From the NCBI GenBank assembly GCA_036489315.1, contig DASXFZ010000040.1:1-64000 (forward strand): DNA of 64,000 nt. The letters run 5' to 3'. Under the pieces are notes generated by a model that saw only the letters and a list, made by a program, of their open reading frames with translations, searched no databases and had not been told where the DNA came from. How positions within the stretch are numbered: position 1 is the first letter of the stretch; every line of letters starts with the position of its first letter. Below are positions 492 to 17,313 of this stretch, piece after piece. The translations under genes and the position numbers were made by a program. The stretch is from Candidatus Cybelea sp. (lineage in GTDB: Bacteria > Vulcanimicrobiota > Vulcanimicrobiia > Vulcanimicrobiales > Vulcanimicrobiaceae).

Positions 492-594
492 TTGCTTTAC
501 GGCACGACCGGTCGTGGAAGGCGTCTGTAACGGCGGGACGGTCTACAGCATCGCCCTAAGCGGCATCGTAAAGGTGCTGCATATATTCTGCTAA
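492..594 (+). pseudogene. Relic of a GloVer-repeat lipoprotein gene (3' end, frameshifted)
   Basis: One frame reads LLYGTTGRG. After a one-base slip near 521-523 another frame reads GVCNGGTVYSIALSGIVKVLH before a stop at 592-594. Together they rebuild one GloVer unit of the kind seen intact at 16108-17313. No start or upstream repeats are present, so this is a decayed 3' fragment. It places a GloVer relic just left of the mobile element while an intact GloVer gene lies just right of it. Confidence 0.7.
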
Positions 595-664
595 GGGTCA
601 GCGCCCACGCCTGCATCCCCCGATGAAACCCTCGGAAGCAAGCGGCACCGGAACTGCGGCGGCT

Positions 665-679
665 CTTGTGTAGTATCCC
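665..679. repeat. Flank repeat resembling the right end of the casposon
   Basis: CTTGTGTAGTATCCC matches 14 of 15 bases of the outer end of the right terminal repeat (15960-15974, with C in place of the central G). It sits directly before the left target-site copy. With the left inverted repeat it forms a near-perfect 15-bp inverted pair around the 14-bp duplication. It could be the relic of an earlier tandem casposon or the native leader-like flank of the target. Confidence 0.8.
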
Positions 680-693
680 GCGGCATAATCCAG
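680..693. repeat. Left target-site duplication (14 bp)
   Basis: GCGGCATAATCCAG directly abuts the left terminal inverted repeat and is identical to 15975-15988. A 14-bp duplication is within the length range (about 14-15 bp) reported for casposase integration. It is not part of a recognisable tRNA gene. Confidence 0.93.
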
Positions 694-723
694 GGGATAG
701 TACACAAGGGGCCACAACGTCCG
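694..723 (+). repeat. Left terminal inverted repeat of the casposon (30 bp)
   Basis: It begins GGGATAGTACACAAGG and ends CAACGTCCG. The whole 30 bp is the exact reverse complement of 15945-15974. The match stops abruptly on the inner side. The outer side abuts the 14-bp duplication. Confidence 0.95.
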
Positions 724-795
724 CTCTGGATCGCTTGCCTTGCCGTTCGAGGGCGGACGATAGGCACCTAACTCCAAGATTTGGAAGGCATGCCC

Positions 796-1668
796 ATGCC
801 GATCTCACGCTCCCGGAGCGGGTTGTTTGTTTACACAACTCAATCCGGAACTTCCAATCCTAAGTTCAAGTGCAGTTATAGCCTTGACGAACGGATCGAT
901 TCGGAAGTTGCGCAACTCTGCTGGACTCTGCTACGAAGTATACAGCCCTACTTGGGTGACCAGGTAAACATAAGTGTAAGGAATCATCTAGGTGTCGTCC
1001 GCGAGGCGTTTCCCGATCCTGTACAATCCTGGGTCGTGTACTATGCTGCGTTGATCCTTGGGGCTTCGGACGCCGCGCTAACGCTGGCCGTTCATAACCT
1101 TGGCCGGGAGGAAAGGATTCTCGCGCGGCAGATATTTGAATACACATTTAAAGCGCAATACTTTGCCACCCATCCGAGGCAGGCAAAAACGGAGCTTGAA
1201 ACCGAGCCGTTTCGCGAATTATGGCTACTGGAAGACCTCGGCTACGATCGGAGAATGGCGCGATACCGTAGGCTTAAGACGGAGTGCTTGCAACTTGCTC
1301 GGAAACGTCCAGCACTCTACGCGCACGCTAAGAAAACGCGCCGCCGCGAACCCCCGAGCGTCCCAGATTCGATGGGGCGCAAGAGCCGAAAGCGAGGCGC
1401 AACCTACGGCCTCCACTACAGGCTACGGAGTCAGACGATGCATGGAGGGGTCCTCGGAATGCGTGAAGTCTTCACGGCGCAGGGCATCCAGTTCGATAGT
1501 CGAGAGACGGACCCTAACTTTACCCTGGCGGATATCTGCCGATACTTGATAGCCTTCCTAAAGATAATGAACGGCGTGTTTTCGTTAGGCAAGGCTGGAG
1601 AGATCGACGCATTCCTTAATAATGTCACGCGCATTGAAAACAGGTTATTCTCACACCTAAAGAAGTAA
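796..1668 (+). CDS. DUF5677-like (HEPN-type) cargo protein A
   Basis: About 290 residues and mostly helical. The start at ATG 796 is chosen because AAGG lies 7 bases upstream; ATG 790 and TTG 781 are alternatives. A central block around ARQIFEYTFKAQYF is followed by H-P-R-Q-A. A late block RSQTMHGG fits the R-x4-H spacing of HEPN ribonucleases. The next gene shares the same layout, suggesting an old tandem duplication. It lies just inside the left terminal repeat, a usual place for cargo. The DUF5677-like assignment rests on motif memory; a defence or RNase role is inference. Confidence 0.6.
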   Translation: MPISRSRSGLFVYTTQSGTSNPKFKCSYSLDERIDSEVAQLCWTLLRSIQPYLGDQVNISVRNHLGVVREAFPDPVQSWVVYYAALILGASDAALTLAVHNLGREERILARQIFEYTFKAQYFATHPRQAKTELETEPFRELWLLEDLGYDRRMARYRRLKTECLQLARKRPALYAHAKKTRRREPPSVPDSMGRKSRKRGATYGLHYRLRSQTMHGGVLGMREVFTAQGIQFDSRETDPNFTLADICRYLIAFLKIMNGVFSLGKAGEIDAFLNNVTRIENRLFSHLKK

Positions 1669-1705
1669 CGGGTGACCGTCCGAGCGCGGTGAACTATTGT
1701 CGGCC

Positions 1706-2539
1706 ATGAGTGAGCAAAGCAACGCCATAACGGCTCGTGTTAGTTTAGGGCAGGATACGCGTCAACTGCTACCGGAGATTATCAAATCTCTGGAAGCGAA
1801 CATGAAAGCCGAAACTAGCGAACAGCTTAAGTTCGTGTTGCTCTGGCAGCTAACTCTGGCAACTACGGCCTGGGATGTATCAGAGGCCGCGATTATGATT
1901 GGCTCCCAGGGGTCGGTTCGAGCCGCGAGACTACTCAATCGCTGCCTGTCCGAATACGCGTACCGAACCCATCAGTACAGCAGTTCACCAAGACGTGCGG
2001 AGAAGGATGGCTTACAAGCCGGTGCGATGGCTCGTAAGCTCATGGAACCAGCGGCGCTGAACCTCAAGCGCACCATGTCAGACGCGGAGTACGCCGCATT
2101 CAAAGCCTACCTGGATGCTGCACCTCCTGCACTAAGCTTCACGAAGCTTCGCAAGATGATGAACGCCACGCTGACCCGCATGGGCGTCAAAGATACTTCG
2201 CGCGAAGAGTTTCTCGCTTGGTTAGAAGTTGAATACACGCTTGGCAGCGGGATGGTTCACGGCAGCCAGGTTGCGCTATTGGACGCCTTTCGCAAAGCTG
2301 AGAACGACAGCTTCGAACGGGGTGAGCGGTCGCTGCATTTTCAACGTCAGGATGAGCTTATCCGAACTGCTGCAAGCTTAATTCTGCTCATCGCAGCTAT
2401 CGAGTTATATCATGGCGAGGATTTCGGCGGGCGCGCCCTCGTTCAACGGATGGAGCACGAGTTCTTCGGCGAGCATCGGCTCGTCACAGTGTGGCAGCAT
2501 GACGCACTCTTACCGCTCCTCGGCGTGCGGCGGTCTTGA
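1706..2539 (+). CDS. DUF5677-like cargo protein B
   Basis: 277 residues from ATG 1706 (TTG 1697 is in frame but less likely). The block around CLSEYAYRTHQYSSSPRRAE aligns by eye with FEYTFKAQYFATHPRQA in the preceding gene. GSGMVHGS aligns with RSQTMHGG but lacks the arginine, so any HEPN catalytic motif is lost. A hydrophobic helix (ASLILLIAAIELY) lies near the C-terminus. It follows the first gene by 37 bases on the same strand and probably shares its transcript. It may be a non-catalytic partner of protein A; that is inference. Confidence 0.58.
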   Translation: MSEQSNAITARVSLGQDTRQLLPEIIKSLEANMKAETSEQLKFVLLWQLTLATTAWDVSEAAIMIGSQGSVRAARLLNRCLSEYAYRTHQYSSSPRRAEKDGLQAGAMARKLMEPAALNLKRTMSDAEYAAFKAYLDAAPPALSFTKLRKMMNATLTRMGVKDTSREEFLAWLEVEYTLGSGMVHGSQVALLDAFRKAENDSFERGERSLHFQRQDELIRTAASLILLIAAIELYHGEDFGGRALVQRMEHEFFGEHRLVTVWQHDALLPLLGVRRS

Positions 2540-2551
2540 AATGACCTAGAG

Positions 2552-3961
2552 TCAAGCTCGCTTAGGCTCGACGCGGCCTATTCTTCCGTTGGAGTTTAGG
2601 ACAACGGGAACTACCGCAGTTTCCTGAGTCCCAAAGTATTCTTGGGCGTTGCCAGCAAAACCTAAGATCGATAATAGCATCCGATTCGCAAGGGTTCTAA
2701 GCAATCCGCTTTGGCGGAAGATCAACTGCCATTGAGCATTGTCATCGTAGTCGAAAGCGATAAAACCGGGGTGACTCATTGCGTGACGGTGTTGAAGTGC
2801 ATCACGTTCTGCCTTATTGATAGTGATGCCCGTGGCTTTCCAAAGCTGGCGCTGCTTTTCACTTGACGAATCGGTTACTGCTAGCCCCAAGATGTCCCCC
2901 ACGCGTTTACGAAAACCTGACTCTTCCCGAGGAAGTAGCCCTTTGAGAAAGTCGTCAATGGCCTTTCGTACTATGGGAAGGCGCTTTTTTGAGATGAAGC
3001 GCTGGTGTGACGCTTCGAGTAACCGCGATTCAGCGATTGCGTCGATTGCGGAGCACATATCGCGAATCTCTGCCTCCGTTCCGTTATGGGAAGAAAGCAG
3101 GTATTGCATCGCTACATCGATGCGAACAGCATCAGCAAGGAGGCTCTTGCACCGGTCGAGTAGACGCTCAAGCTGGTCGCCGAAAACGCGCATAGCTCCA
3201 GCATGTATGGTACCTATTGCTGGTGTCGGTGGCCGGTTAGTAAAAGTGTTTATCGTGTCCGCTCGTAGCCACGTTAGGCCGCCGTCTCCGTTTGCTCTGT
3301 ATTGAAAGGCCGGTTCAAGCCACGTCCCAACAGCCAAAGAAAGGACGATCCGCAACGCGGCAAGCCATTCCACCTCAGGACATGAGCCGACCCGAGCGAC
3401 AGCAAAGGCGGTCGCTTCTTGTTTGGGAAACTCGGGAACGTCAATCAGCTGTCTTATCAGGGCGGGAGCACCACCAATGTTGCATCGCAGCCCGCGCTCC
3501 ATGAACCAACGGCGAACTACTCCTGGGGGAACGGGAATCCTATCCGGAAATATAACGGCCGTCGGGCCGCCTACGAGTACCCATACCGTTGTGGCCGGTT
3601 CCTCCTCGGAAATGTGGCGCTTCCAGGTACGAAAATCGACCCTAGCATCTTGGTTGCTGAAGCCTCGCAGAAAGCCCCCAGCAAGTTCAATAGCCGGATC
3701 GGACGCTGTGGCTCCAATTACGGGAGCAATGTCGCCGTAGTTCCCCATATCGGTCCGCCGAAAGCTACCGTCGTCTCGGCAAGTAAGTAACGTCTCAAAA
3801 GGGTTATTCTCTTGAGAGATCACCAAACTTTCAAACGTCCGGTCGCCCTCGCTCACTTCAATCGCGCTCAGCTTCGGCAACACCGGATATGGCGGCTGTT
3901 CGGTAGCCCTGATCAGGACCTCGAAGGTCGGGTCAATCAAAGCTCCTTCGGCTGCTGTCAT
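2552..3961 (-). CDS. HEPN-motif protein, possible anti-phage RNase
   Basis: 469 residues. The N-terminal half is unrecognised. The C-terminal third is helical and carries H-RHAMSH-PG near residues 391-399, which fits the HEPN ribonuclease signature R-polar-x3-H (R392, H397). The long N-terminal domain plus C-terminal HEPN recalls abortive-infection proteins such as ApeA-like families, but I cannot name the family. It lies 36 bases downstream of cas1 on the same strand and is probably co-transcribed with it. It may be defence cargo or a regulator of the element. Confidence 0.62.
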   Translation of the reverse strand: MTAAEGALIDPTFEVLIRATEQPPYPVLPKLSAIEVSEGDRTFESLVISQENNPFETLLTCRDDGSFRRTDMGNYGDIAPVIGATASDPAIELAGGFLRGFSNQDARVDFRTWKRHISEEEPATTVWVLVGGPTAVIFPDRIPVPPGVVRRWFMERGLRCNIGGAPALIRQLIDVPEFPKQEATAFAVARVGSCPEVEWLAALRIVLSLAVGTWLEPAFQYRANGDGGLTWLRADTINTFTNRPPTPAIGTIHAGAMRVFGDQLERLLDRCKSLLADAVRIDVAMQYLLSSHNGTEAEIRDMCSAIDAIAESRLLEASHQRFISKKRLPIVRKAIDDFLKGLLPREESGFRKRVGDILGLAVTDSSSEKQRQLWKATGITINKAERDALQHRHAMSHPGFIAFDYDDNAQWQLIFRQSGLLRTLANRMLLSILGFAGNAQEYFGTQETAVVPVVLNSNGRIGRVEPKRA

Positions 3962-3997
3962 CGATACGGCGGGTAATCGGTTCGCGGTTCGATTTGA

Positions 3998-5323
3998 CTA
4001 CTTTTTAGCTGCACGTCGCCCCGTAATACCAAGCCGGTTGTTCTTTGCGAGCGCCGCGCCACGGGCCTTAGCCGCAGTACCGCCATGCCCAGGGTTCAAT
4101 CCCGCTTCGCGCATTTGGTTGAGCTTGGCCCGCGCTTTTTCTATCGGCCTGGCGACCTCGACGCTGTAGCGCAAGTAGCAATCTCGCCCGCAGAACTTTA
4201 AACCTTTGCGCGGTAACGGCTCCTTACAGTACCCGCACTTTGCCCGCTTCCACATCCTTCGTCTCTCCGCTATTGGCTTCGGTGCCTCACGCAGTAATCG
4301 ACGTGGGATCGTGGTTCGGCGCAGCTGCTTTGCATAATCATTCGCTATTCTGAGGGCGGCCTCGGCGAACCGGGGCGCCAGGGCAGACGCGAGAGTTTCG
4401 GTCAGGTCAGGATCGAGCCGGACAACGCCGTCGCGCAGTTCGTGAAACATAGCAGGAACCAGTTTCTGCTTGTGAAGCAGTTCCAGCGCCCAGACATCGG
4501 CCTTGGTCCGCAGAGGCTCCAGCAGATCGTAGATGAACGATTCTCGCAGCCTATCATCAACGTGGAGTAATCCGAGGTCTGGGTCGAGCCCAACCGCTTC
4601 GCAAGCGATTCGCGTCTCCACTTCGAGCAAGGTGTAGCAGTAGTTGAGCACAGCATTGAACGGATCGGTAGCATCCCGAACCCGCTCCCGCAGTCCGTTC
4701 GTACGAGGCGAGATCGCGGCCCAATGTCTCGGGATTCGCTTCAGCGCCCATTCCCGCCACGGCAGAGGCGTAGCGACGAGAAGCTCCCAGTAAACCTGAG
4801 CCGCTCTCCCCTCAAGCGTCAGGAAATCAACTAGCGTCTTGGCCGCCGACAGGGACGCGATGCAAGACTGGATTTGTTCGACGGCTCTCGTTCGCGCGCT
4901 CGCGTTTCCGATATTCAGGCGCGCGAAGTCTCGCTCGATGGCCTCGACCTGCGAATCCATCTTCTTCGTGAGAAGGTAGCGCGCGAGGAGCAATGCGTCA
5001 TCGGTCACTGCGCTGATCGCCTGCGCCCGCTTGACAGGTCCGTCGTGCGGGGCGTCCGGCACCAGGCAGTTGAGCAACGTGCTATCCGAGGCCACGAACG
5101 AAACTGCGATCCCCATGCGGGCACACCAGTCGATAGCCCCCATGGACATTGTTCCTCCTTTAGCCCGCACGATGATGCGCTCGATCTCGCATCGGCCTCG
5201 CGGGAATCGGATTTCTCGGACCTCGCCCTCGCTCGGAAACCCGTCCCGAACCACGAGATGGCCTCGTTCGACGTAAAGACTGGCATCGTAACCGTCAACG
5301 GTAAGAACGCTAGATAGATTCAT
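3998..5323 (-). CDS. cas1: Casposase: Cas1 integrase with C-terminal zinc finger
   Basis: 441 residues. The start at 5323 (MNLSSVLTVDGY) has GGGAAGG about 6 bases upstream; a longer start at 5356 is less likely. An N-terminal beta-rich Cas1 domain runs to about residue 85, then an all-helical domain. Catalytic residues are visible: E171 in LEGRAAQVYW, H254 in LGLLHVDD, D266 in FIYDLLEPLR, with the DPFNAVLNYCYTLLE core. After residue 360 comes CGYC-x11-CGRDC, a likely zinc finger. A basic G/A/R-rich tail follows and resembles NUMOD3-like DNA-binding segments. It overlaps the upstream HTH gene by 14 bases. No cas2 or CRISPR array is nearby. Its setting between matching inverted repeats supports the casposase role: cutting and joining element ends into a 14-bp target. 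Confidence 0.94.
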   Translation of the reverse strand: MNLSSVLTVDGYDASLYVERGHLVVRDGFPSEGEVREIRFPRGRCEIERIIVRAKGGTMSMGAIDWCARMGIAVSFVASDSTLLNCLVPDAPHDGPVKRAQAISAVTDDALLLARYLLTKKMDSQVEAIERDFARLNIGNASARTRAVEQIQSCIASLSAAKTLVDFLTLEGRAAQVYWELLVATPLPWREWALKRIPRHWAAISPRTNGLRERVRDATDPFNAVLNYCYTLLEVETRIACEAVGLDPDLGLLHVDDRLRESFIYDLLEPLRTKADVWALELLHKQKLVPAMFHELRDGVVRLDPDLTETLASALAPRFAEAALRIANDYAKQLRRTTIPRRLLREAPKPIAERRRMWKRAKCGYCKEPLPRKGLKFCGRDCYLRYSVEVARPIEKARAKLNQMREAGLNPGHGGTAAKARGAALAKNNRLGITGRRAAKK

Positions 5324-6341
5324 GTGACACCTTCCCAAATGAAATCGTTCTACCAACTTGGTCGGCCCACTGCTTTACCAACTGGACATCAGCGATGATC
5401 CGTTCCATATTTCCAGCGCGCACTTGTTGCGCCAGTTTCTTCGAATACTCATTATCGCGACAAGTGGCTGTCATGGCACACAGCAGCGGGGCGAGAAATC
5501 GATCAACGACCTGTTTGTCCTTGGGGCCGAGCCAATCAGTATCGGACGCATTCATCCTAGGAAATGCCGAGACTACGGCGGGAAGGGATCGTGCTACAAG
5601 TTCGACCGCCCAGTAGACACTCGTCGGATTTCCCGTGGCAATCTCTCTTACCGCCATCAACATCGCATTTTCGCCGTCCAGTCGTAGCAGTTGTGAGAAC
5701 TCCGAAGTCTCGGAGAGCAGCGTTTGGAGCACCTGTTCGGCTGGTGGATTTGGGTTATTCCCGATTACGACAGCCAATTGCCGCACGTCGCGTGCTATGG
5801 CGCCGAATGGTGGTGACGGCCTCACGGACGTATGCAACACGAGGGCGATCAAAGCTGCCGCGACCTCTCTTGCTAAGGAAGACCGCCCCAAGCTGGGGAT
5901 TACCTTGAGCACGATCTTCCGAGCCAGGTAGCCCCCGAGTTTCTTCGCTGTGCCTAGGATTCCAAGGTGAAACCCTTCGTTTCGCCTGCCGAGACCGTTA
6001 ATTGTGCGAAGCCAGAAGCCCTGAAACAATCGCACTGTTAAATCGAGGTGCTCACAAACGAGCTCTGGACTTATGTCGCGCGCTCCCTCGTAGCAGAGCC
6101 AGAACGCGATCTCGCTACTACGGACCCGTTTAGATTCGAGGCGAGCAAGTATGCGGGCTATCGAGATGAGCCGATCTCGCTGTATCGCGGTGTATCCGTA
6201 GGCGGGCGATCTTCCCGGGCGTGACTCGCAGAGTAGCCCGGCTGAGTGCCAGCGATCTACCTGGTCGTCGCCCGGCACCGAATAGCCCGCACGAGCGATC
6301 TGCTGCAAGACCTCGCGTCGTGGAATGACTTGTTCTTCCAT
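5310..6341 (-). CDS. MerR-like winged-HTH protein upstream of cas1
   Basis: 343 residues from ATG 6341. Residues about 8-75 resemble a MerR-type DNA-binding head (RREVLQQIARAGYSVPGDDQVDRWHSAG, then a wing and FW-x-L-C-Y). The remainder is helical and unrecognised. Helix-turn-helix genes next to cas1 are common in casposons, where they may bind element ends or control expression. The 3' end overlaps cas1 by 14 bases, so the two are translationally coupled. It is transcribed divergently from 6458 across a 116-bp gap. The ribosome site is poor: AAAGG directly abuts the ATG. Confidence 0.65.
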   Translation of the reverse strand: MEEQVIPRREVLQQIARAGYSVPGDDQVDRWHSAGLLCESRPGRSPAYGYTAIQRDRLISIARILARLESKRVRSSEIAFWLCYEGARDISPELVCEHLDLTVRLFQGFWLRTINGLGRRNEGFHLGILGTAKKLGGYLARKIVLKVIPSLGRSSLAREVAAALIALVLHTSVRPSPPFGAIARDVRQLAVVIGNNPNPPAEQVLQTLLSETSEFSQLLRLDGENAMLMAVREIATGNPTSVYWAVELVARSLPAVVSAFPRMNASDTDWLGPKDKQVVDRFLAPLLCAMTATCRDNEYSKKLAQQVRAGNMERIIADVQLVKQWADQVGRTISFGKVSHESI

Positions 6342-6457
6342 CCTTTAGTGTTCGCGCAAGGCGTCCATTTTTCCGCGATTTACTGAGGACAATGCCTCGC
6401 AACCTTGGAGCCATGCTGTAGGCCTCCCACTCCCCGCCCTAAGGAGGTTCTCACACC

Positions 6458-6973
6458 ATGCCAAGGCGCAAAAGACCCAAGAAAGTTAGCAAAATCCACC
6501 TCAAGGCGATGACGAAGCGTCAGAATGACGCGTATCGTCGCAGCCTGGATACGGTCGCGTTGAAGCGCCGCAATCCGCATCTGTCGCTCACGAAAGCGGC
6601 TACATCGAGCGGAACTACTTTGACGACTATTCGTAAATACGTCGGAAGTGCCTTAGACGTGCGCTCTGGCCGGTTTGACGTTAAGCCGACGGACCGGCTG
6701 CCGCGACCCATGCGTATGCTAACGCCAGCAGGCGAGATTTCGGTCCTAACGACCAGCTCGCGAACTGCTTCGCAGATCGGTCATTATAACAACGCCGTGC
6801 GAGCTTTCCTTATAACCGGCGATGAAAGCTCCCTCCAACTGTTCGAGGGCCTGTCGATTCGTAGCGACGGCAAGACGTACGCCTTCGTTACTGACCGAAC
6901 AACACTCAATCGGCTCGCTCGCGCCGGAGCCGTGCATTTCCTTGATATCTACGCGTCGGAGCCAGAATCATGA
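6458..6973 (+). CDS. Conserved-looking casposon protein with basic N-terminus
   Basis: 171 residues, not recognised. ATG 6458 is backed by a perfect AAGGAGG at 6441-6447. The first 25 residues are very basic (MPRRKRPKKVSKIHLKAM). Residues about 40-62 (LTKAATSSGTTLTTIRKYVG) look like a helix-turn-helix. The C-terminal half (DGKTYAFVTDRTTLNRLARAG) looks like a small alpha/beta domain. It overlaps the HNH gene by 4 bases (ATGA) and leads the polymerase operon. A DNA-binding role in replication or transposition is plausible but inferred. Confidence 0.6.
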   Translation: MPRRKRPKKVSKIHLKAMTKRQNDAYRRSLDTVALKRRNPHLSLTKAATSSGTTLTTIRKYVGSALDVRSGRFDVKPTDRLPRPMRMLTPAGEISVLTTSSRTASQIGHYNNAVRAFLITGDESSLQLFEGLSIRSDGKTYAFVTDRTTLNRLARAGAVHFLDIYASEPES

Positions 6974-7608
6974 GCGATTACCCGCACCAGAATCGGCGTG
7001 ATACGCGTATAATTAAAAAGCTAGTTAAGCTGGGCACGGACAACCCGGTTTGTAACTATTGCGGCGCAAGAGACTGCCGATTTCTGATCGTCCTGGGAAC
7101 AACTGGCGAAGAAGCGATCATTTCTTGTCTCAACTGCCGTGCCAAACAAAGGCAGGTCTCCGCGAAAGCGCTCGAACGCAAACGCAAACGGTTCGTCGAG
7201 GCTGGCTATCCATACCCTGCTTGCGTGGTATGCAACGAGTCCGACTTACGGGCGCTCGAACGCGATCATCTCAGTGGCGGTGCAAACAGTTTATTGATTG
7301 AGCCGTTGTGCCTCAATCATCATGCAATAAAATCGGACGAGGCTGAGGATCACTTTCCTGAGTTACGGTTGCGCGACCTAAATCGATCAGCGTTGCTCAA
7401 ACAGGCCGCCTTTGAAATCGGCTTGGCACTAGTGCTCTTGCTTATCGCGTCAGTCCGCGAAGAGGCTGACTCGATGGGCATTTTCTTCGGAATCGTAGCC
7501 TTATCCCTATTTGGCTGGGCCGCGTGGAACGTCAAGGCGGATCGATATTTCGCGGACACGGTGGGAATCGAATACGACCGACACATCTACGCTGAGGTGC
7601 CATCATGA
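6970..7608 (+). CDS. HNH nuclease with C-terminal membrane segments
   Basis: 212 residues. Two Cys pairs near the start (C28-x2-C31, C53-x2-C56) suggest a zinc ribbon. A McrA-like HNH core follows: C85-x2-C88, E97-R-D-H100, N106, then C114-L-N-H-H118. HNH nucleases are frequent casposon genes with an unknown exact role. Unusually, residues about 147-186 form two hydrophobic stretches (IGLALVLLLIA and MGIFFGIVALSLFGWAAW), likely membrane spans. ATGA overlaps join it to both neighbours, so it is co-translated with the polymerase. Confidence 0.8.
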   Translation: MSDYPHQNRRDTRIIKKLVKLGTDNPVCNYCGARDCRFLIVLGTTGEEAIISCLNCRAKQRQVSAKALERKRKRFVEAGYPYPACVVCNESDLRALERDHLSGGANSLLIEPLCLNHHAIKSDEAEDHFPELRLRDLNRSALLKQAAFEIGLALVLLLIASVREEADSMGIFFGIVALSLFGWAAWNVKADRYFADTVGIEYDRHIYAEVPS

Positions 7609-10457
7609 TCGCCGTGGAGACAGCAATCCGCGCTTGGGTCGAACCGAAAACTCACCAACGTAAAACGAAGTCCCGTCGTATTACCTTCAGACCTCAGCCG
7701 TACGGCGAGCGGGTGCTGGTCTTCGACACGGAGACGACTACAGATCATGCACAGCGGCTGCTGTTCGGCTTCTTCAGGCTCTACCAGGATGACTGGCTTA
7801 TTCGGGAAGGTCTGATCGTCGCCGATGTGCTCGCCCATGACGACATGGAAGCGATGAACGTGTATGGAGCCAAGAGCGACGTTCACATCTATAGCCGAGA
7901 AGTTTTCGTGGAAGAGGTATTCTACCCAGAGGTCTACGTGCGAGGCACCCTTTGCGTGGGTTTCAACTTACCTTTTGATCTCGCGAGGATCGCGGTTCAC
8001 GCAGGATGCGGGCGGGGAAAGAATCGCCGGCGCTTTCGCCTCGTTCTTTCCCGTCGTCTACGATGGCCGGACCTTCGGATCGAGAGCGCGTCGGGGCGCG
8101 CGGCATTCATCGAGTTCGTCCCAAAGAGGAAACTCGATCCTTGGGAACTCCCGTTTTTCAAGGGCCGCTTTCTTGATCTTAGCACGCTTACGCGAGCTTT
8201 TACCGGATTTCATCATAGTCTCAAGAGCGCGTGTAAAGCGTTTCATACGCATTCGCGCAAGATGGATATCGACGAACTGGGACAAGTAAATCGACGGACC
8301 TTACTCTATGGGCGCCAGGATGTTCGTGTTACATGGGCGTTATATCGAAAGCTGCGCAACGAATACGGGCAGCATCCCTTCGCAACGTTTGAGAACGAAA
8401 GAGGCAAGCTTAAGCATGTGGCCTACATGGGAGAACTCTATTCCAGCGCCAGCATCGCGAAACAATATCTTCGGCTCCTTGGTTTCCGGCCGCTACTGGA
8501 AGCCCAACCGGACTTCGATCCGGAGCATCTGGGGCATGGCAGCGCTTCTTACTTCGGCGGTCGAGCAGAAGTACGCGTGCGAAGGTCGGAGGTACCAGTA
8601 ACGATACTTGACTTCACGTCAATGTACGCATCTATTTTTATCCTGCAAGACCTGGAGAGCCTGATATCGGGAAGGATTGCTGCCGTCGAAGTCCCTGCGT
8701 CGGAGATTGAGCAACTCCTTAACGAAATGACCGCCGCACATCTGTTCGATAAGGCGGTGTGGCGGCTTTTCAACTGTCTCGTTCTGGTCGAGCCAGGTTC
8801 CGCAATTCTCCCGGTACGAATGCGCTTGGCTAGGAATGAACCCTACACCATAGCGGTGACACCGTTTCAAGCTCCAGAAGGTCGCTGGTGTACGCTGGCG
8901 GACGTGATTGGCTCAAAGTTGCTCGGCGGGAGACTTCCAAAGATTCTTAGGGCTTTCCGATTCATCATGCAGGACAAGGCTCGAAAGCCCAAAGCGGTCT
9001 TGTTTCGAGGACAAGTGTCGCTTGGGGAATGCGGGCCCATATTTAAGACCATCGTAGAAGAACGCCAGAGGGCGAAGAGAACCGCAAAAACACATGGAGA
9101 ACTTCGGGCGCTCGAACTCGGACTTAAGCAAATGGCAGCGAGCGGAGCATACGGTATTTTCGCCGAGGTCAACGTTACGCCCCACAATCTAGGCGACCCG
9201 CTCGCTGGAATGATCTATTCGGACATGACCTACCTCTGCCCGGACGTGCATAACGAGCGCCCAGGGGCTTTCGCGAATCCGATTATCGCAAGCCTTGTAA
9301 CCGGCGGCGCTCGCCTCATGCTCGCATTGCTCGAACAAGAAGTTGCCGCAGGTAATGGGGTTTTCGCATTTTGTGATACGGACAGCCTCGGAATCGTATG
9401 CGGCGAGGAATGCCCAAGCAACGTGGCTTCGCTTCAAAGGCCAAGCATCGGCGAAATCGTGATGAGATTCGATGCGTTGAATCCTTACAATCCTGACACC
9501 GTTCCCCATTTGCTGAAGGTTGAGTACGAGGAGACGCTCGATCTTCGCTGCTTTGCGATATCTGCAAAGCGGTATGTGCTATTCCGGGTTCGACCCGGCG
9601 GGCGGATCGAGATTATTAAGGCCTCCGAAAGTGGCCTCGGTGCAATCATCGGACGTTCACGAGAGGAGACAACGAAGAAGCTAGCACGTCGCGTCTGGCT
9701 TTCGATCCTGCTCCATGAGCTTCCAGGTATTAGCCCTAGGCAGCAGCGTCGGGCTCTGCCACTCATCGCCTTCGATGTTCCGCTGCGGCGCAAGTTTCCC
9801 GTCAGTCAACCGTCTGTCTTGAAGCGCTTCGAGTCCTACAACCGTGGCCGAAGCTACGACTCACGAGTAAAGCCGTTCGGCTTCGTGCAATCCGTGACAC
9901 CAGCATTCCTAACTAGTTCGCACGACGTGCTTCCAATCGCACCATTCGAACGCGAGCTTGCAAAGTCGCGTAACGTGCCGTGGGTTGACTTTCGTACGAG
10001 CCGGAAATTGGTTTTGGATTGGAGCGGAGAGCACCATGCTGGTACGATTCCGGTCCTGCGGATGGACGAATACATTCGGGAGTACCGCTGCCATCCGGAG
10101 GGTAAGGCGGCTGATTTGAACGGCAATCGGGCGGGGTCAGACGCCAGGGGCGTGCTTCGAAGGCTTTCCGTGAGCTCCGTTTACCTCGCGCGTATCGGAA
10201 AGGAAGTGGATCGGCTCGATGAGGACGAAGGTGCCTCGCTCGACGGAGCGGAGCCCCAAGAGTACCTCGGAGCAGTCCGCCAAGACTTGGCGAGCGATAT
10301 CGCCTTCCTCGCTGGTTTTCCGCAAGAACTCACGGCTGTCGATATTGGCTTATCGCCGCGACGCTGGCGCGAAATCGTGAAGGGCCGCGCTCGCCCGCGC
10401 ACTTGCAATGCAAGATCGATTGCGCGAGTTGCAGCACAGTACCGGAGCGTCCGGTAA
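7605..10457 (+). CDS. polB: Family B DNA polymerase of the casposon
   Basis: 950 residues. The 3'-5' exonuclease domain has ExoI D41-T-E43, ExoII N121-LPF-D125 and ExoIII Y235-GRQ-D239. The palm motifs are A: D336-FTSMY, B: K508-QMAASGAYG, and C: D591-T-D593-S. About 190 residues separate motifs A and B, with room for a palm insertion, but I cannot decide between protein-primed and primase-dependent types. The C-terminal 300 residues are unassigned. By family knowledge it replicates the excised element. It overlaps the HNH gene by 4 bases. Confidence 0.93.
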   Translation: MIAVETAIRAWVEPKTHQRKTKSRRITFRPQPYGERVLVFDTETTTDHAQRLLFGFFRLYQDDWLIREGLIVADVLAHDDMEAMNVYGAKSDVHIYSREVFVEEVFYPEVYVRGTLCVGFNLPFDLARIAVHAGCGRGKNRRRFRLVLSRRLRWPDLRIESASGRAAFIEFVPKRKLDPWELPFFKGRFLDLSTLTRAFTGFHHSLKSACKAFHTHSRKMDIDELGQVNRRTLLYGRQDVRVTWALYRKLRNEYGQHPFATFENERGKLKHVAYMGELYSSASIAKQYLRLLGFRPLLEAQPDFDPEHLGHGSASYFGGRAEVRVRRSEVPVTILDFTSMYASIFILQDLESLISGRIAAVEVPASEIEQLLNEMTAAHLFDKAVWRLFNCLVLVEPGSAILPVRMRLARNEPYTIAVTPFQAPEGRWCTLADVIGSKLLGGRLPKILRAFRFIMQDKARKPKAVLFRGQVSLGECGPIFKTIVEERQRAKRTAKTHGELRALELGLKQMAASGAYGIFAEVNVTPHNLGDPLAGMIYSDMTYLCPDVHNERPGAFANPIIASLVTGGARLMLALLEQEVAAGNGVFAFCDTDSLGIVCGEECPSNVASLQRPSIGEIVMRFDALNPYNPDTVPHLLKVEYEETLDLRCFAISAKRYVLFRVRPGGRIEIIKASESGLGAIIGRSREETTKKLARRVWLSILLHELPGISPRQQRRALPLIAFDVPLRRKFPVSQPSVLKRFESYNRGRSYDSRVKPFGFVQSVTPAFLTSSHDVLPIAPFERELAKSRNVPWVDFRTSRKLVLDWSGEHHAGTIPVLRMDEYIREYRCHPEGKAADLNGNRAGSDARGVLRRLSVSSVYLARIGKEVDRLDEDEGASLDGAEPQEYLGAVRQDLASDIAFLAGFPQELTAVDIGLSPRRWREIVKGRARPRTCNARSIARVAAQYRSVR

Positions 10458-10481
10458 GGACCCCAGTCCAGGACCGCTGGT

Positions 10482-13400
10482 TCACCGCGTGGCGCCTTTC
10501 ACTTGACGATAGTTGGCGTCTAGACGCTCACCCATTTCCAGGATCGCGGCTATTCGCCGAGCTATCTGAGTGAACTGTCGCGCTTCATCAATGTCGAGGA
10601 CCCGGTGCAAGGCAGCCTGTTCCCGGTAACTAAGCCACTTCTTGAGCACCTGATAACCCGCTACTGAATACTGCCAAACCTCGCGAGGCACACCTTTGAA
10701 GCACACGTTCTCGTTAATGTAAATGTCAAGAACGATGTTGCCTGCGGCGATTTTGATTTGTTCTTCGTCCTCGGTTTCCACCGCCTTCCCGTCCTCCCAG
10801 ACAACGATTTTGCCCCGTCCTCCGGTAATCCCATTCTTGCTAACACGTCCCCATCCAGCATTTACCAAAAGGTCATCTTCCGTGACGGCATCGCCATTTG
10901 TTTTCGTCAGGGTAGCCACGGAAGACAAGTCCTTGGCTACCTTTCCCCGCGATACGCCGTCAACTTCTTGGTCAAGGTCCGTCATTGTGGCGATCTGTTG
11001 ACCGAGCATGGCGGATGACACAAGCATTTCGCGCGAGCGCGGTAGTGGGAAGCGCGGAGCTTGCACGGCCAAATCGTCGGCGTTTTCGGCCATGTACTGA
11101 GCAGAGTTTGCTATCGCGACAAAATGATACCAAATGAGGTCAGCTTCACCTTTAGCGATCTGGTCGCTCGAATAGCCTAAGGTTTTAAGATATTCTACTG
11201 CCGCATCCGAGAGGTTTGGGTGACTGTCATCGAAGAGTTTAACGTGGCCGCCGCGCTCGTCGCTGGTCGTATACTGCAGTGGGATGAAATAGGCGTCTTT
11301 GTGCATCGCATGTTGGTCGCCGATATCCCTAGATGCGAGCAAAGGTACTCCATCGTTTGGTTCGACCGCGTTTTTGCGATAAACTATGAACACGGTCTGG
11401 TGTCCCAGGGTTCGGACAAGCTGAGGTCGCCATTCGTTCCAAAGCTTATGTCCCGCGACATATGCCCACCGTTTATCGAATGGATGGTACAAGAAGCGAT
11501 GGACGGAGGACACAGAAAATCCCAGGCCTCTCATCGCAGTCTGCACAGATTGGGCGTCAAAACGAGCAGCGTCGCTTAGTAAGCCCGCTCCGCCTAACCT
11601 TCGCAACGTTGCAGCATCGGAGCCTTCAAAATACGCCCTCATGCGCTCAATGAGCGTGTCACGCTGAACGTCCATGAGGGCTCCCTTCCGGTTTTCGTTG
11701 AGGCCGAGGGACGCCGGTAGTTTACAGATATCTTCTATGCTAGGCCACTCTCGATACTCTGGTAATGCAGCGGCTGGCTTGAGGGAATAGTAACGGCTCC
11801 GCTCTGGTTTGACAACCACATATTCGCTATCGGGATTAGAGTCTGACAATGAATGAACCATGTGCTGGCGTCGAGCTTCAGCGCGCGAATCATTGAAGTC
11901 ATCCCGGTAGAGCACAACAGGCTCTTCCAGGTGCTCCCGCGAGCGCTTAAGCCATAGGGAGACGACGACACCCTGGCGGATTCCCCGAGAGAACCCCTCC
12001 AAAGCAAAGATCGTTTCGCTCGATTTACGATCCGGTCCGTACTCGGATATCTGTCGATTTCCGTGGAGATTGTCGATCCAGAACTGGTCGAAATGACTTA
12101 GCAGGCTTTGCCGAACGGGGGCAGCGGTCTTGTGATTTACCCATGAGTAGTTTGATACATAGCAAACGATGCCGCGATATGGCTCATGTTGCGAGATTCG
12201 ATTCTCTGCGATGCGAAAGAAACGAATATAGGGGTCGTCCAGCTTGTTCTTGGTGAAGCCCCATTCTTTTAAGCCCTCTTTGTACGGATCGATAAGGCCC
12301 TGCTCTTCTTCAGGACTTACTCCGGAAAAGCCATCGTAGGGCGGATTGCCAATGATTACGATGATGGGAGTGTCACGCTTGACGCGGTTAGCAGCATCGC
12401 GTTCTTCAGCGAACTGGGGGAACGGAAGAAGAAGTTTCGTGTCGTCTTCGACTCGCCACCCCGTGAGAGCGTTGCTGAGATAGACTTGCGCCCGTTCCTC
12501 CCGGTTGCCACTTTGTTTCAGCGGGGCACCGATAGATTGCAGCAACAAGCCCACTTGAAGATGCGAGACGACAAATGGAGCTGGAATTAGCTCGAAGCCA
12601 AAAATCCTTGTGAGTGCTATTTTCTTGAGCTTCAAGGCTGCCGAAGCATCTTTTCCGACACCTAGATGTTCACCTATTTTGCGCAGGGCAGCTACGAGAA
12701 ACGAGCCGGTACCGGCGCAAGGGTCTAGGAGATAGACGCGCTGGTCCGCCAAGCCGTCAGCTAAGTCTAGCTCCTCACGCAAGACCCGATCTACGCGGGC
12801 TACCATATATTCAACAATTTCAGGAGGCGTAAACCATACACCCATCTTTTTTCGTAGCACCGGATCAAACTTTTGCAGAAACGGCTCGTAAAAGTGCTGG
12901 ACGGTACGGCCTGTATCGAAGGCTTTGAAGAACTGCCTCCGATCAACGCGGTTTAGAGCGTCCGCCACCGCATCAAGAATGGGGGCCATCCGCAGCGGGC
13001 CTAACATAGATGGTGTAGCGATTTGTTCAAAGAGCGAGCGAACCATCGGCACGTGAAGATGCCACGCAGCATCGTGCCATCGAAACTTGTCGCTTGCCTT
13101 GCGTTGCGGGTCCTTTGACCAAAGTACCCACGCGGAGAATACGCCGTAGAACAAAGTCTGTATCAGCGTGGAATGGAAGAAGTGGTCGCCATCCTCGCCT
13201 TTGAACTTCAACCCAAGAGATTTTTCCAAGGCGTCGCGGACCGCGAGAAGGCCCGGTGGGTCTGCCATTGGCATCCGTTCTGCGGCTTCGCGTGCGAATG
13301 ATGCAAGTAGCATTGCAATGTCGTGCGCCTCTCGCAATGGCGCGCCCCGGAGTAGGACCCGGACTAGAAAGTCTTCAAACTGCTCGGCTATTGCCTTATC

Positions 13401-13889
13401 GGATTTTGTCGCTTCGTTGACGAGCTTCCAAAAGGCAGGCTCATCATCCGCGAGTGAGAGAGAATCGACTACCCGACGACCTTCAGCGTCATCAACAACT
13501 AACGCAAATGATCGAAGGTTGGTAAGGAGCACTTGCCCATAACGTTTCGAGTAGCTCTTCGCCTGTTCCGACTTGAAAATGGCGTCAATGTCCTGGCTCG
13601 GACCTTTTACTTCGATTGCGCCGCGCCCCGGGATACTAGATGCAAGAACGTTAGACGACCGACGACGTACCTGGTCGGCTGTAAACAGGCCCCCATCGGG
13701 CAATCCGGCCCCCGTATTGCGTATATTCATTACGGGCTTAACCTGGGGCTCCAGGCGCGAGCCAATCTGTTCGAAAAGCTCAGACAATGCCGGATAGTAG
13801 GAGAGTTCATCAACGGCGTGTCCGGACGCCCGTATATCTGCTACCTTTGCAAGATACCGCTTCAAAGCGGCTCCTCGCGTCGTTGGCAT
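10482..13889 (-). CDS. Single-chain restriction nuclease-methyltransferase (type IIG/ISP-like)
   Basis: 1135 residues from ATG 13889 (MPTTRGAALKRYL, with GGGG upstream); a TTG at 13979 would add 30 residues. The N-terminal nuclease looks like PD-(D/E)XK (PD65, then E93-VK95). After a helical linker comes an N6-adenine methyltransferase with motif I DPCAGTG at 389-395 and IV NPPY at 515-518, plus VWFTPPEIVEYMV typical of type I/ISP enzymes. The C-terminal part should be the target-recognition domain. No helicase motifs are seen between nuclease and methylase, so a type IIL-like enzyme is more likely than true ISP. It probably protects element and host while cutting unmodified DNA. Confidence 0.85.
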   Translation of the reverse strand: MPTTRGAALKRYLAKVADIRASGHAVDELSYYPALSELFEQIGSRLEPQVKPVMNIRNTGAGLPDGGLFTADQVRRRSSNVLASSIPGRGAIEVKGPSQDIDAIFKSEQAKSYSKRYGQVLLTNLRSFALVVDDAEGRRVVDSLSLADDEPAFWKLVNEATKSDKAIAEQFEDFLVRVLLRGAPLREAHDIAMLLASFAREAAERMPMADPPGLLAVRDALEKSLGLKFKGEDGDHFFHSTLIQTLFYGVFSAWVLWSKDPQRKASDKFRWHDAAWHLHVPMVRSLFEQIATPSMLGPLRMAPILDAVADALNRVDRRQFFKAFDTGRTVQHFYEPFLQKFDPVLRKKMGVWFTPPEIVEYMVARVDRVLREELDLADGLADQRVYLLDPCAGTGSFLVAALRKIGEHLGVGKDASAALKLKKIALTRIFGFELIPAPFVVSHLQVGLLLQSIGAPLKQSGNREERAQVYLSNALTGWRVEDDTKLLLPFPQFAEERDAANRVKRDTPIIVIIGNPPYDGFSGVSPEEEQGLIDPYKEGLKEWGFTKNKLDDPYIRFFRIAENRISQHEPYRGIVCYVSNYSWVNHKTAAPVRQSLLSHFDQFWIDNLHGNRQISEYGPDRKSSETIFALEGFSRGIRQGVVVSLWLKRSREHLEEPVVLYRDDFNDSRAEARRQHMVHSLSDSNPDSEYVVVKPERSRYYSLKPAAALPEYREWPSIEDICKLPASLGLNENRKGALMDVQRDTLIERMRAYFEGSDAATLRRLGGAGLLSDAARFDAQSVQTAMRGLGFSVSSVHRFLYHPFDKRWAYVAGHKLWNEWRPQLVRTLGHQTVFIVYRKNAVEPNDGVPLLASRDIGDQHAMHKDAYFIPLQYTTSDERGGHVKLFDDSHPNLSDAAVEYLKTLGYSSDQIAKGEADLIWYHFVAIANSAQYMAENADDLAVQAPRFPLPRSREMLVSSAMLGQQIATMTDLDQEVDGVSRGKVAKDLSSVATLTKTNGDAVTEDDLLVNAGWGRVSKNGITGGRGKIVVWEDGKAVETEDEEQIKIAAGNIVLDIYINENVCFKGVPREVWQYSVAGYQVLKKWLSYREQAALHRVLDIDEARQFTQIARRIAAILEMGERLDANYRQVKGATR

Positions 13890-14088
13890 GCTACCCCGCT
13901 TCACCGCAACCTGGGCGGTTGCCGTACATAATGGCGGCCTACGAAGCCATTTTGCGGACCAGGTTCGCACCGGCTGCAAGGTCTGCCTGCGAATGAGGAA
14001 AGGCTCGGCTATGATACGGCCTTCCGCGAGACCGCAGCGGCGGTTCTGCTATATGAGCGAGTATCGAGGCCCTAGAGGCTTCGCGCGC

Positions 14089-14325
14089 CTAGCCGACGGA
14101 CTTCCGACTCAGGAGCGTCGCAGCATCGCTGCGAAGCGCATCTGCCACTTTGCATAGCGTCGCAATGGTCACGTTGAGCTCTCCGCTTTCGATCTTTTGG
14201 TAGTGTCTCGTAGCGATCCCGAGGCGCTCGGCGACCTCTTCCTGCGAGAGTCCAAGAGCTGAGCGCTGCCGCCGGAGATTGGATCGAAAAGCCTTGATCG
14301 TCGCCGTGTAGCTCTTGCTCGGCAC
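14089..14325 (-). CDS. XRE-family regulator, likely R-M controller protein
   Basis: 78 residues from GTG 14325. It is almost entirely a Cro/C1-type HTH (LRRQRSALGLSQEEVAERLGI, then HYQKIESGELN and LCKVADAL). It lies about 200 bases upstream of the restriction-modification gene on the same strand. Small XRE proteins there usually are C proteins that delay restriction until the DNA is methylated. The palindrome at 14360-14377 is a candidate operator. An alternative is a regulator of the divergent nuclease gene. Confidence 0.85.
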   Translation of the reverse strand: MPSKSYTATIKAFRSNLRRQRSALGLSQEEVAERLGIATRHYQKIESGELNVTIATLCKVADALRSDAATLLSRKSVG

Positions 14326-14359
14326 GAGCCGAGTCTAGACGAAGGCCCAGCCTCTCACC

Positions 14360-14377
14360 ACGCCAATATAATGGCGT
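14360..14377 (+). promoter_or_regulatory. Operator-like palindrome containing a perfect -10 box
   Basis: ACGCCA-ATATAA-TGGCGT has perfect 6-bp arms. TATAAT occupies 14367-14372. Transcription would start about 7 bases on, at the ATG of 14379, giving a leaderless mRNA. The site sits between the XRE gene and the nuclease, so the XRE protein may bind here. No clear -35 box is seen. Confidence 0.55.
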
Positions 14378-14378
14378 C

Positions 14379-15911
14379 ATGTCCACGAAGCGTCGGATCG
14401 CTAAGAAAAGCCGATCAGGCGGCACTCGAGACTCCATGGGGCTCACAGCGAAGCCTTGCTTATCGGCGCGCGACGAACAATGGGTGACCAAAACGGATAT
14501 CATCCGCTTTCGCGCCTGCCCCTATGCATTTTTTCTTGTAGATCGGGGCTATGTTTCGCTTGAGCAGTTAGGTGGAGAGTTTAATAACGAACTTATACAA
14601 GCGGGAAGAGATTTCGAACGAACAGTTAGGGCGTCGGCTGTACCCCTTCCAATACCCTCCGAGTTAACGTACGATGTGCTGCCAACCTTGTTTTCGAAAC
14701 CGTGCGTCCTCTTTGGGTTACCGATGCTCGAAAACGTCAAGCTGAAAATTTATGGTAAACCTGATGGAGTGAAGACAGAAGGTGGGAAACTCATTCCCAT
14801 CGAGATTAAGTCGCATGCAAGTGTTCGCCGCGAAGACCGGCTTGAATTGGCGTTTTACCACACGCTCTTAGAGCCATATCGAACCATGCGCTCGGAGCCG
14901 AGAGGAATGCTCATCCTCCGAACGGCATTCGGTGAAGAGCAGATTGTAATAGAGCTACGCGAGCAAGACTTCGAGGTCGTACGGGGACTAGTGAAAGACG
15001 TTCGGCGTGCTCGTCGCGATGGTGTCACGCCACGTGTTTGCGCATGCGAAGTTTGCGCTACCCGACCAGAAGTCGACGAATACATTAGAGAGCGTAAAGG
15101 GACAACTTTGATCTACGGCGTGCGAGCCTCACGCGCCCGTGCTTTGGCGAACCTTGGCATCTCGTCTTTGGAGCACATTCGAGATTGCGATCCAGAGAGT
15201 GTATCGCGCGATCTTCGGCCACATCGCCACTTCGTGTCTGAATCAACTGTGCGTTCCTGGAAGCACCACGCGGCGAGCTACTTTAGCGAAGGCCCAGTTT
15301 TATTCGGTCAAACACCTCTCGACTTTTCATCTTTCATCGCGGTCGATCTCGAATATATTGCAGCGGAGCCGGGATGGATTTATCTCATCGGACTGTCTCT
15401 AGTCACCGAGAGCAGAACGAACATTCTTCAATGGTGGGGCAATGGCCCAGCGGAGATTAGAGCCAACCTTCGCCGACTAGGCGATCAAATCGCACAACAC
15501 CCGAACCTTCCGGTCGTTACGTGGGCCGGTGGAAGCGCAGAAATTCCGGAGCTCAAAAAGGCCGCCGACAGGTATGGGTTGGACGATGTCTTGCAAGCAT
15601 TCCTTGACCGACACCTGGATATGTTTCACTACGCCGAACGGAACGTCCGTCTCCCGATTCCAACCCTCGATCTTAAGAAGGTTTCGGCTTTCTTTGGCGT
15701 GCCCCGCAGAAGCACGATCAACGGAGGGATGGAGGCAGAGGCGCTCTATCGACGCTTCAAGAGTTCGCGCAGTCGTGCCGCGAGGAGCCGAATTAAGGAA
15801 TCGCTTCTTGAATACAATGGCGACGACTTGCGCGCTGTGTCCGAGATCACTTACCGAATGAGAAAACTGAGCGCCGAGGCGCGCGGTGAGAACGTAGCCA
15901 TTGAACCATAG
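14379..15911 (+). CDS. TM0106-type fusion: Cas4/RecB-like nuclease plus RNase H-fold exonuclease
   Basis: 510 residues. The N-terminal half is Cas4/RecB-like: C47 in FRACPYAF, active-site D129 and E142-I-K144, then C221-A-C223-x2-C226. This four-cysteine pattern fits an iron-sulfur cluster. Residues about 250-270 resemble a helix-hairpin-helix. The C-terminal half has an RNase H-fold exonuclease pattern with D323-L-E325 and a late D482-D483, as in YprB-like proteins. Cas4-like nucleases recur in casposons and may trim ends before Cas1 joining. It is the last gene before the right terminal repeat. Translation from ATG 14379 appears leaderless. Confidence 0.85.
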   Translation: MSTKRRIAKKSRSGGTRDSMGLTAKPCLSARDEQWVTKTDIIRFRACPYAFFLVDRGYVSLEQLGGEFNNELIQAGRDFERTVRASAVPLPIPSELTYDVLPTLFSKPCVLFGLPMLENVKLKIYGKPDGVKTEGGKLIPIEIKSHASVRREDRLELAFYHTLLEPYRTMRSEPRGMLILRTAFGEEQIVIELREQDFEVVRGLVKDVRRARRDGVTPRVCACEVCATRPEVDEYIRERKGTTLIYGVRASRARALANLGISSLEHIRDCDPESVSRDLRPHRHFVSESTVRSWKHHAASYFSEGPVLFGQTPLDFSSFIAVDLEYIAAEPGWIYLIGLSLVTESRTNILQWWGNGPAEIRANLRRLGDQIAQHPNLPVVTWAGGSAEIPELKKAADRYGLDDVLQAFLDRHLDMFHYAERNVRLPIPTLDLKKVSAFFGVPRRSTINGGMEAEALYRRFKSSRSRAARSRIKESLLEYNGDDLRAVSEITYRMRKLSAEARGENVAIEP

Positions 15912-15944
15912 CGATTCAGTTTAGCCAGCCCGCGACCCCTGAAT

Positions 15945-15974
15945 CGGACGTTGTGGCCCCTTGTGTACTATCCC
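15945..15974 (-). repeat. Right terminal inverted repeat of the casposon (30 bp)
   Basis: An exact reverse complement of 694-723, ending ...GTACTATCCC at 15974. It lies 33 bases after the nuclease stop codon. The terminal C abuts the right duplication directly. Confidence 0.95.
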
Positions 15975-15988
15975 GCGGCATAATCCAG
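15975..15988. repeat. Right target-site duplication (14 bp)
   Basis: GCGGCATAATCCAG is identical to 680-693. Together with the last 15 bases of the element, 15960-15988 matches 665-693 at 28 of 29 positions. The following 119 bases up to the next gene hold no feature I recognise. Confidence 0.93.
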
Positions 15989-16107
15989 TGTATTCATCAG
16001 GCATTGAATCATACCGAGTTGCCGGTCGGAAAGGCGCTATGTGCAATTTGCCGACCGAGCCGGGCGTATTGACGATCGTCGTTGGCGCAACGGCTGAGCC
16101 CTTCGAA

Positions 16108-17313
16108 TTAAGGCGTTAGCTTGAATACCGTACCGGCGTTATCGGCGCCGCCGTCGTACGTCGTGCCGTAAAGCGTGGCGTTTGAGTTCGCGAGACCGTC
16201 GTAGGGATGCGCACCGTCGGCCGGGCCGCCTTTAAATGCGTAGACGACGTGCTCGGTGCCGCCGGGCGTGACGCTGTAGACGGTGCCGTTTCGCGGTGTT
16301 CCGCCTTCGTACGTCGTGCCGTACAGAAGGCCGCCCACCTCGACGAGCCCCGCGTACTGCGGATGCGCGCCGTCGGCGTTCGGTTTGAACTTGTGGAGGA
16401 TTGTTTCGGTGCCGCCCGGGGTGACTTTGAAGACGACGCCCCAGCCGGAGCCGATTCCGCCTTGGTAGGTCGTACCGTAGAGCGCGCCGTTGTAGGCGAG
16501 GAGCTTGGCATAGGGATACTGTCCGTCGGGGGCGCCTTTGAAGCTGTAGACGACGTGCTCGCTGCCGCCAGTTGACACTTTGTAGACGGTGCCGTTGCCT
16601 TTGGTGCCGCCCTGCTCCGTCGTGCCATAGAGCATTCCGTTGTAGACGATCAGACCGGCGTAGGGATGCGCGCCGTCGTGCGTGCCGTCGTCGTTGGCTT
16701 TGAAGCGGTAGATCACTGTTTCGGCACCCGAGAGGCTTACGCGAAAGACGATGCCCCAGCCGTAACCGCCGCCGCCCGTATACGTGGTTCCGTAGAGCTG
16801 CCCGCCATCGGCAATGAGGCGCCCGTAGGGATAGACACCGTCGTTTCCGCCCTTAAAGCTGTAGAGAACTTTTTCGACGCCGGTCGTGCTGACTTTGAAG
16901 ACCGTTCCGCTGCCGCTGGTTCCGCCTTGGTACGTGGTGCCGTAGAGCGTGCCGTTGACGCCGGTGAGGCCGGCGTAGGGATGCGCGCCGTCGCTGTTGG
17001 CTTTGAACTTGTAGATGACGTGCTCGGCACCGTCGGGCGCAACTTTGAATACGGTGCCCCAGCCGCCCGACGTGCCGCCGCCGTACGTCGTGCCGTAGAA
17101 CGTGCCATTAATCTCGGTTAACCCGGAGATCGGATTTGCGCCATCGATGCCCGCTTTAAAGCTATAGATCTGCTGGTAACGGTTGCCGGCGAGCGGCTGC
17201 TCCCGCTGCGCGAGTTGTTCGTTCGGATACGGCGTAAAGCCGATGCCGTGCGAGCAGCCGGCGAGAACCCCAAAACAAATAAGAAGACGGAGAAGCGTGG
17301 AGGCGTTCGGCAT
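16108..17313 (-). CDS. GloVer-repeat lipoprotein
   Basis: 401 residues. A lipoprotein signal (LLRLLICFGVLAGC) ends at a lipobox near residue 20. The rest is about seven tandem units of roughly 50 residues with the core LYGTTYQGG, then GTVFKV and VLYSFKGG-DG-PY. This is the GloVer tandem repeat, thought to fold as a beta-propeller. Export to the envelope is expected, and ligand and role are unknown. Close paralogues lie at 20132, 29650 and, as a relic, 492-594. Confidence 0.85.
   Translation of the reverse strand: MPNASTLLRLLICFGVLAGCSHGIGFTPYPNEQLAQREQPLAGNRYQQIYSFKAGIDGANPISGLTEINGTFYGTTYGGGTSGGWGTVFKVAPDGAEHVIYKFKANSDGAHPYAGLTGVNGTLYGTTYQGGTSGSGTVFKVSTTGVEKVLYSFKGGNDGVYPYGRLIADGGQLYGTTYTGGGGYGWGIVFRVSLSGAETVIYRFKANDDGTHDGAHPYAGLIVYNGMLYGTTEQGGTKGNGTVYKVSTGGSEHVVYSFKGAPDGQYPYAKLLAYNGALYGTTYQGGIGSGWGVVFKVTPGGTETILHKFKPNADGAHPQYAGLVEVGGLLYGTTYEGGTPRNGTVYSVTPGGTEHVVYAFKGGPADGAHPYDGLANSNATLYGTTYDGGADNAGTVFKLTP

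Follow-up and report, generated by a model that had tools for sequence, protein, structure and literature searches.

The adaptation machinery of CRISPR systems is thought to have descended from casposons. Family 1 of these elements is characterised by a protein-primed family B DNA polymerase (PolB) and a compact Cas1, family 2 by an HTH domain fused to the C-terminus of Cas1 and by archaeal hosts; a HEAT-type protein is also known from family 2. To our knowledge, few bacterial casposons have been described so far. Family 3 comprises bacterial elements from Nitrosomonas, Henriciella, Streptomyces and Acetothermum, and Cas4-like genes are known in some casposons (PMC4046053). Casposons in tandem have been described in Methanosarcina (PMC4046053, PMC9939771) and produced in vivo (PMC10359463), and the role of a leader at the integration site has been mapped in vitro for the casposase of Aciduliprofundum boonei (PMC6614799).

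How does a casposon of Candidatus Cybelea sp. compare with these systems? The DNA analysed, referred to as the window, is a stretch of 64,000 nucleotides (GenBank assembly GCA_036489315.1, here G000; contig DASXFZ010000040.1). An earlier note had proposed an Eremiobacterota-type host, and same-genus genomes are indeed named Candidatus Eremiobacterota. It had also described an intact casposon with Cas1, PolB, HNH and HTH proteins between perfect 30-bp inverted repeats, with an exact 14-bp target duplication and without a CRISPR array, a description that is confirmed here. The complete casposon of about 15 kb spans 694-15974, is bounded by terminal inverted repeats (TIRs) and a target site duplication (TSD), and contains the core genes. 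The left TIR (694-723, plus strand) is complementary to the right TIR (15945-15974, minus strand) at 30/30 positions (100%), and the 14-bp TSD, GCGGCATAATCCAG, reads with the same letters on both flanks, copy 1 at 680-693 matching exactly the leader-proximal copy 2 at 15975-15988 (both plus strand). One TIR-plus-TSD structure was found in the window versus none in 40 dinucleotide shuffles, and the GC content is about 52-60% within the casposon versus 61-69% on the right flank up to 28 kb. No CRISPR array lies at the casposon, and an Rfam search of positions 1-20000 returned no match.

The casposase gene cas1 (3998-5356, minus strand, probable start at 5323) encodes a protein with a C-terminal CxxC...C motif and a NUMOD3-like tail, matching Cas1 profiles in Pfam (7e-39) and NCBIfam (4e-31). 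It is overlapped by g5 (5310-6341, minus strand), which encodes a putative N-terminal HTH plus helical protein and occupies the same place in all elements of group A, the lineage to which the window casposon belongs; a fold search with g5 gave no match, so that a HEAT-type identity is not confirmed. On the plus strand follow g6 (6458-6973), a conserved putative HTH protein at 52-57% to its relatives, the HNH nuclease (6970-7608), with a conserved LExDH...N.H motif, conserved zinc-binding Cys residues and a C-terminal hydrophobic segment, and PolB (7605-10457), with a C-terminal HTH. PolB was assigned to family B by profile and motifs; its profile matches Pol alpha and the C-terminal HTH, and the window PolB alone matches DNA_pol_B_2, weakly. 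The order cas1-g5 / g6-HNH-PolB is constant in group A.

Relatives were surveyed in 149 genomes of the phylum with a Cas1 match cut-off of E<=1e-15. Matches occur in 25 genomes; the one in G093 belongs to a CRISPR system, leaving about 24 genomes with casposase-type genes or fragments, in two lineages (groups A and B). Some units lack cas1, among them a 4.0-kb unit in G101 with TIRs and an exact TSD in a protease gene but neither cas1 nor polB. The nearest PolB (81%) and HNH (83%) are those of G052:C159; this element (L232 and L235, from position 6954 onward) is the closest relative of the window casposon, with a very similar TIR, and is preceded by a TIR-14N-TIR junction, and no cas1 was found there. 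The same genome has seven group B type Cas1 matches (L079-L081, L089, L090, L094), an unusual casposon copy number. An assembly artefact, a concern of the earlier note, is unlikely, because independent same-genus and same-family assemblies share the core gene order, the TIR type, the TSD length and the tandem junctions. Could the element nevertheless be dead or domesticated, no longer mobile and retained for its restriction-modification (R-M) and nuclease cargo? Its own genome has one copy, neither a second intact copy nor excision products having been seen there, and many relatives are fragments (G051, G130, G020); however, the TIRs are perfect, the TSD is exact, the core genes are open, and the existence of related elements with other cargo and at other sites implies that the group has moved recently, so that we regard this as an unlikely explanation. 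Very probably, the window holds an apparently intact, autonomous group A casposon that integrates at a protease motif and occupies the leader-proximal place in a polarised array.

The target sequence surrounds the codon for the active-site Cys of a C11-like protease with a single-copy gene, and insertion usually splits that gene. The name "C11-like" rests on the motif (His, NQC) only; naming the target gene after Peptidase_C11 (PF03415) was rejected, as its own family has no matches to that profile apart from a weak one in G035. The canonical target, about 30 bp long, comprises the leader and the first part of the TSD and normally encodes NQCLM.T/MGFAD. In G108, G019, G129, G043 and G113 the 401-aa protease gene is split five codons past NQC, and the 4.0-kb unit of G101 splits it at the same codon; the target motif does not apply to the main G101 element. 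In the window, the leader half lies at 15989-16018 (minus strand) and reads, together with the TSD, ..QCLMNT/LDYAA on that strand. With a target matrix built from 30 intact protease genes, the window's right junction ranks 1 of 127,912 positions, scoring 11.9 against -3.0 for the runner-up and about 67 for intact genes; the junction in G038 ranks 1 of 79,912. The leader therefore corresponds to the right side. Since the likeness to the canonical target is limited to about 30 bp and is a partial match, and since the canonical gene of the same genome is seemingly split elsewhere, the window site is taken as secondary or decayed. At G000:C57:1-1712 (L161) a distinct TIR-like end (GGGTTAATAAAGAGGGGC) is immediately followed by the 3' half of the protease gene, so that in this genome another element appears to occupy the canonical site. 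Other insertions were noted as well. An element of a different kind, with other ends, seemingly interrupts the protease gene in L163-L166, L172 and L173 (G027, G020, G099), about 15 codons downstream of the casposon site, and the gene resembles a general hot spot for insertions. By eye, the group B casposons L085-L086 and L083 (G038, G083) adjoin sequence resembling the SEC-C end of secA, and that of G107 (L096) lies at an apparent tRNA gene. The protease gene was found in about 100 of the 149 genomes, nearly always once and mostly intact, which offers many natural empty sites.

Directly outside the left TSD stands a third, inverted copy of the TIR (665-679), part of a 50-bp terminal repeat (630-679, minus strand) that ends ...TAGTATCCC at 679 and matches G051:C9 at 94% over 50 nt and G051:C1 at 90%. 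As this is the end of another, presumably older casposon-type unit, the window element belongs to a tandem array, and the earlier picture of an intact casposon holds in its intactness but is incomplete as a lone insertion. The presumed interior of the leader-distal neighbour (1-629) is cut by the contig end, has a low GC content like the casposon and contains an NHL-repeat ORF (76-378) and, at about 490-594, the C-terminal part of a truncated GloVer-type gene; lipoprotein genes resembling this content occur in units of relatives. Because of this truncation, the array in the window is deduced from one TIR together with the relatives. Among these, G108 has two complete casposons with one TSD between them, its three TSDs being identical; in G038:C18, three identical TSDs flank an autonomous unit of 14.9 kb and a cas1-less one of 8.7 kb, beyond which a further casposon end is seen; and G038:C20 contains a pair of group B units. 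Of the 149 genomes, 7 show TIR-14N-TIR junctions, and a reversed-pattern control gave none. Alternatively, the casposon might be single and the copy at 665-679 might belong to the site that is recognised instead of to a second element. This copy abuts the TSD exactly and the window contains one TSD pair only; but the likeness extends 50 bp into the TIR of another element, the motif common to intact target genes lies on the opposite side, G108 and G038:C18 hold a whole further unit and a third TSD at that position, and G019 and G129 have an intact protease half there and no TIR. Such target mimicry, the first reading of the TIR copy, was dropped given the full neighbour units and the target motif opposite, and we consider it highly improbable. 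Returning to the tandem array, mutated neighbour ends are always leader-distal where the leader side is known (window, G038:C18, G108, G116), so that units seem to be stacked at the leader end, like CRISPR spacers. This pattern fits such stacking; in the order of insertion that we infer from it, the window casposon would be the leader-proximal and newest unit. Stacking itself is not new, given the tandem casposons of Methanosarcina and those made in vivo.

Is the Cas1 of this element a casposase? The top PDB match, by sequence and by fold, is 6OPM, the Methanosarcina mazei casposase, the predicted model used being of low confidence (pLDDT 69). The catalytic residues E171, H254 and E269 do not vary across groups A and B. 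A tree was calculated from 63 sequences, namely 10 of group A (window included), 11 of group B from the same phylum, 6OPM, and 41 CRISPR Cas1s, many of them likewise from this phylum. Groups A and B together with 6OPM split from the 41 CRISPR Cas1s with a branch support of 99/95, although the exact position of 6OPM is unsure on account of long branches. The earlier concern that the window Cas1 might branch within the CRISPR Cas1s was thus not borne out by the tree, which supports its placement as a casposase-side protein outside the CRISPR clade. Deltaproteobacterial matches (L006-L028) were rejected as casposons: they have no TIR or TSD, several come with CRISPR arrays, and they were therefore taken as CRISPR outgroup. 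Two Cas1 scans of viral contigs found no relatives, and the plasmid matches to the window Cas1 are CRISPR Cas1s. Its own genome has two Cas1 matches only, on contigs C40 and C63; the second (G000:C63:9796-10560, L073) is of group B type and 33% identical, and near it lie sequence resembling the left-end TIR of the window and a GloVer fragment. That a CRISPR adaptation Cas1 was caught by chance between repeats, or that the locus is an assembly chimera, deserves next to no credence: Cas1 and a Cas4-like gene do stand together as in CRISPR loci, but the Cas1 tree, the lack of Cas2 in the genome and of an array at the locus, and the identical core order in separate assemblies all argue against it.

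The cargo flanks the core genes on both sides. On the left lie g1 (781-1668, plus strand), DUF5677-like with a below-cut-off Pfam match (8.7e-5), and two ORFs of unknown function without family match, g2 (1697-2539, plus strand) and g3 (2552-3961, minus strand). A group B casposon in G038 contains a counterpart of g1 with 67% identity, which suggests exchange of cargo between group A and group B casposons. On the right follow a type IIG restriction-methylation enzyme (10482-13979, minus strand), an XRE-type HTH regulator (14089-14325, minus strand; HTH_3 match 5e-13), possibly the control protein of the R-M enzyme, and the Cas4-like nuclease reported earlier between the TIRs (14379-15911, plus strand), a TM0106-type RecB/Cas4 PD-(D/E)XK nuclease with an RNase H domain. 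The earlier claim of defence cargo holds for the type IIG enzyme and, more broadly, for the relatives, whose cargo differs from element to element and is often defence-like: G038 has SIR2-HerA (1e-122 and 8e-155), G107 a ThsB-like TIR protein, G108 OLD-type and AAA/SIR2 proteins, G019 a protein of nuclease-STAND type, G083 a methyltransferase and G101, like the window casposon, a type IIG enzyme. Outside the right end, at 16108-17313, lies a GloVer-type lipoprotein gene with internal repeats of about 150 bp, and GloVer-type and NHL-repeat genes recur in and beside casposon units of this phylum.

The TIRs, TSD, gene set, casposase clade, target motif and tandem junctions of relatives can be read from the DNA itself, and from them a course of events may be proposed. 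Binding of the casposase to the ...ATCCC-3' ends would lead to insertion of the element at the target motif of about 30 bp formed by leader and TSD start, staggered attack giving rise to the 14-bp duplication; transposition would be driven by Cas1. PolB, with the HNH and HTH proteins, would replicate the element or fill gaps. Since leader plus TSD are regenerated, later elements could enter at the same leader edge and displace older ones outward, producing a polarised tandem array. The type IIG R-M enzyme and other cargo would protect the host, which probably favours retention of the casposon.

In the open-access literature, no papers joining casposons or Cas1-solo with Eremiobacterota were found. 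Casposons as such are already known, and so are tandem ones; what seems not to have been described before is the host phylum, the target, the non-autonomous units and the scale. It could be imagined, and we put this forward tentatively as a possibility rather than a probability, that the casposases of Eremiobacterota assemble autonomous elements and cas1-less cassettes, carrying defence and surface-protein genes, into polarised arrays at a single protease locus. If true, such arrays would stand as a natural link between transposition and the ordered acquisition seen in CRISPR, and would in effect be integron-like cassette arrays operated by a Cas1. With its two casposase lineages, many copies, natural target already mapped, dozens of genomes with empty sites, and arrays, the phylum makes leader and repeat recognition by Cas1, ordered insertion and the travel of casposons with immune genes directly testable on natural material.

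The locus shares the features of the casposon superfamily: a stand-alone Cas1 outside CRISPR, a family B PolB, and TIRs with a TSD of 14-15 bp. From a CRISPR adaptation module it differs in the absence of a Cas2 partner in the genome and of an array, and in a Cas1 outside the CRISPR clade. Tn7-type tandem islands are similar in repeated insertion at one attachment site and in varied, often defence-related, cargo, but use an unrelated DDE transposase and spare the target gene, whereas window-type casposons split the protease gene. As to family 1, the window Cas1 is not compact, and PolB shows both the Pol alpha profile match and the weak DNA_pol_B_2 match given above. Family 2 does not fit, as group A Cas1s lack the C-terminal HTH seen in group B and the host is bacterial. 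The site of the A. boonei casposon is similarly composed of an upstream leader motif and the first TSD bases, with a TSD of 14-15 bp, but this archaeal family 2 element targets the 3' end of tRNA-Pro (PMC6614799). The M. mazei element MetMaz (6OPM) has in common with the window casposon the 14-bp TSD, the ...ATCCC-3' ends and tandem integration beside an existing copy (PMC6977970, PMC10359463), and the two Cas1s, about 20-30% identical, lie on the same side of the tree; unlike the window casposon, MetMaz is archaeal, targets a tRNA and has neither R-M nor such a Cas4-RNase H protein. By description, the window casposon is closest to family 3, with which it shares a bacterial host, the set of Cas1, PolB, HNH and HTH proteins, the zinc-binding Cys motif of Cas1, and TIR and TSD of about 15 bp (PMC4046053), and from which it is set apart by another phylum, by insertion into the middle part of a protease gene, and by tandem arrays, cas1-less units and rich defence cargo.
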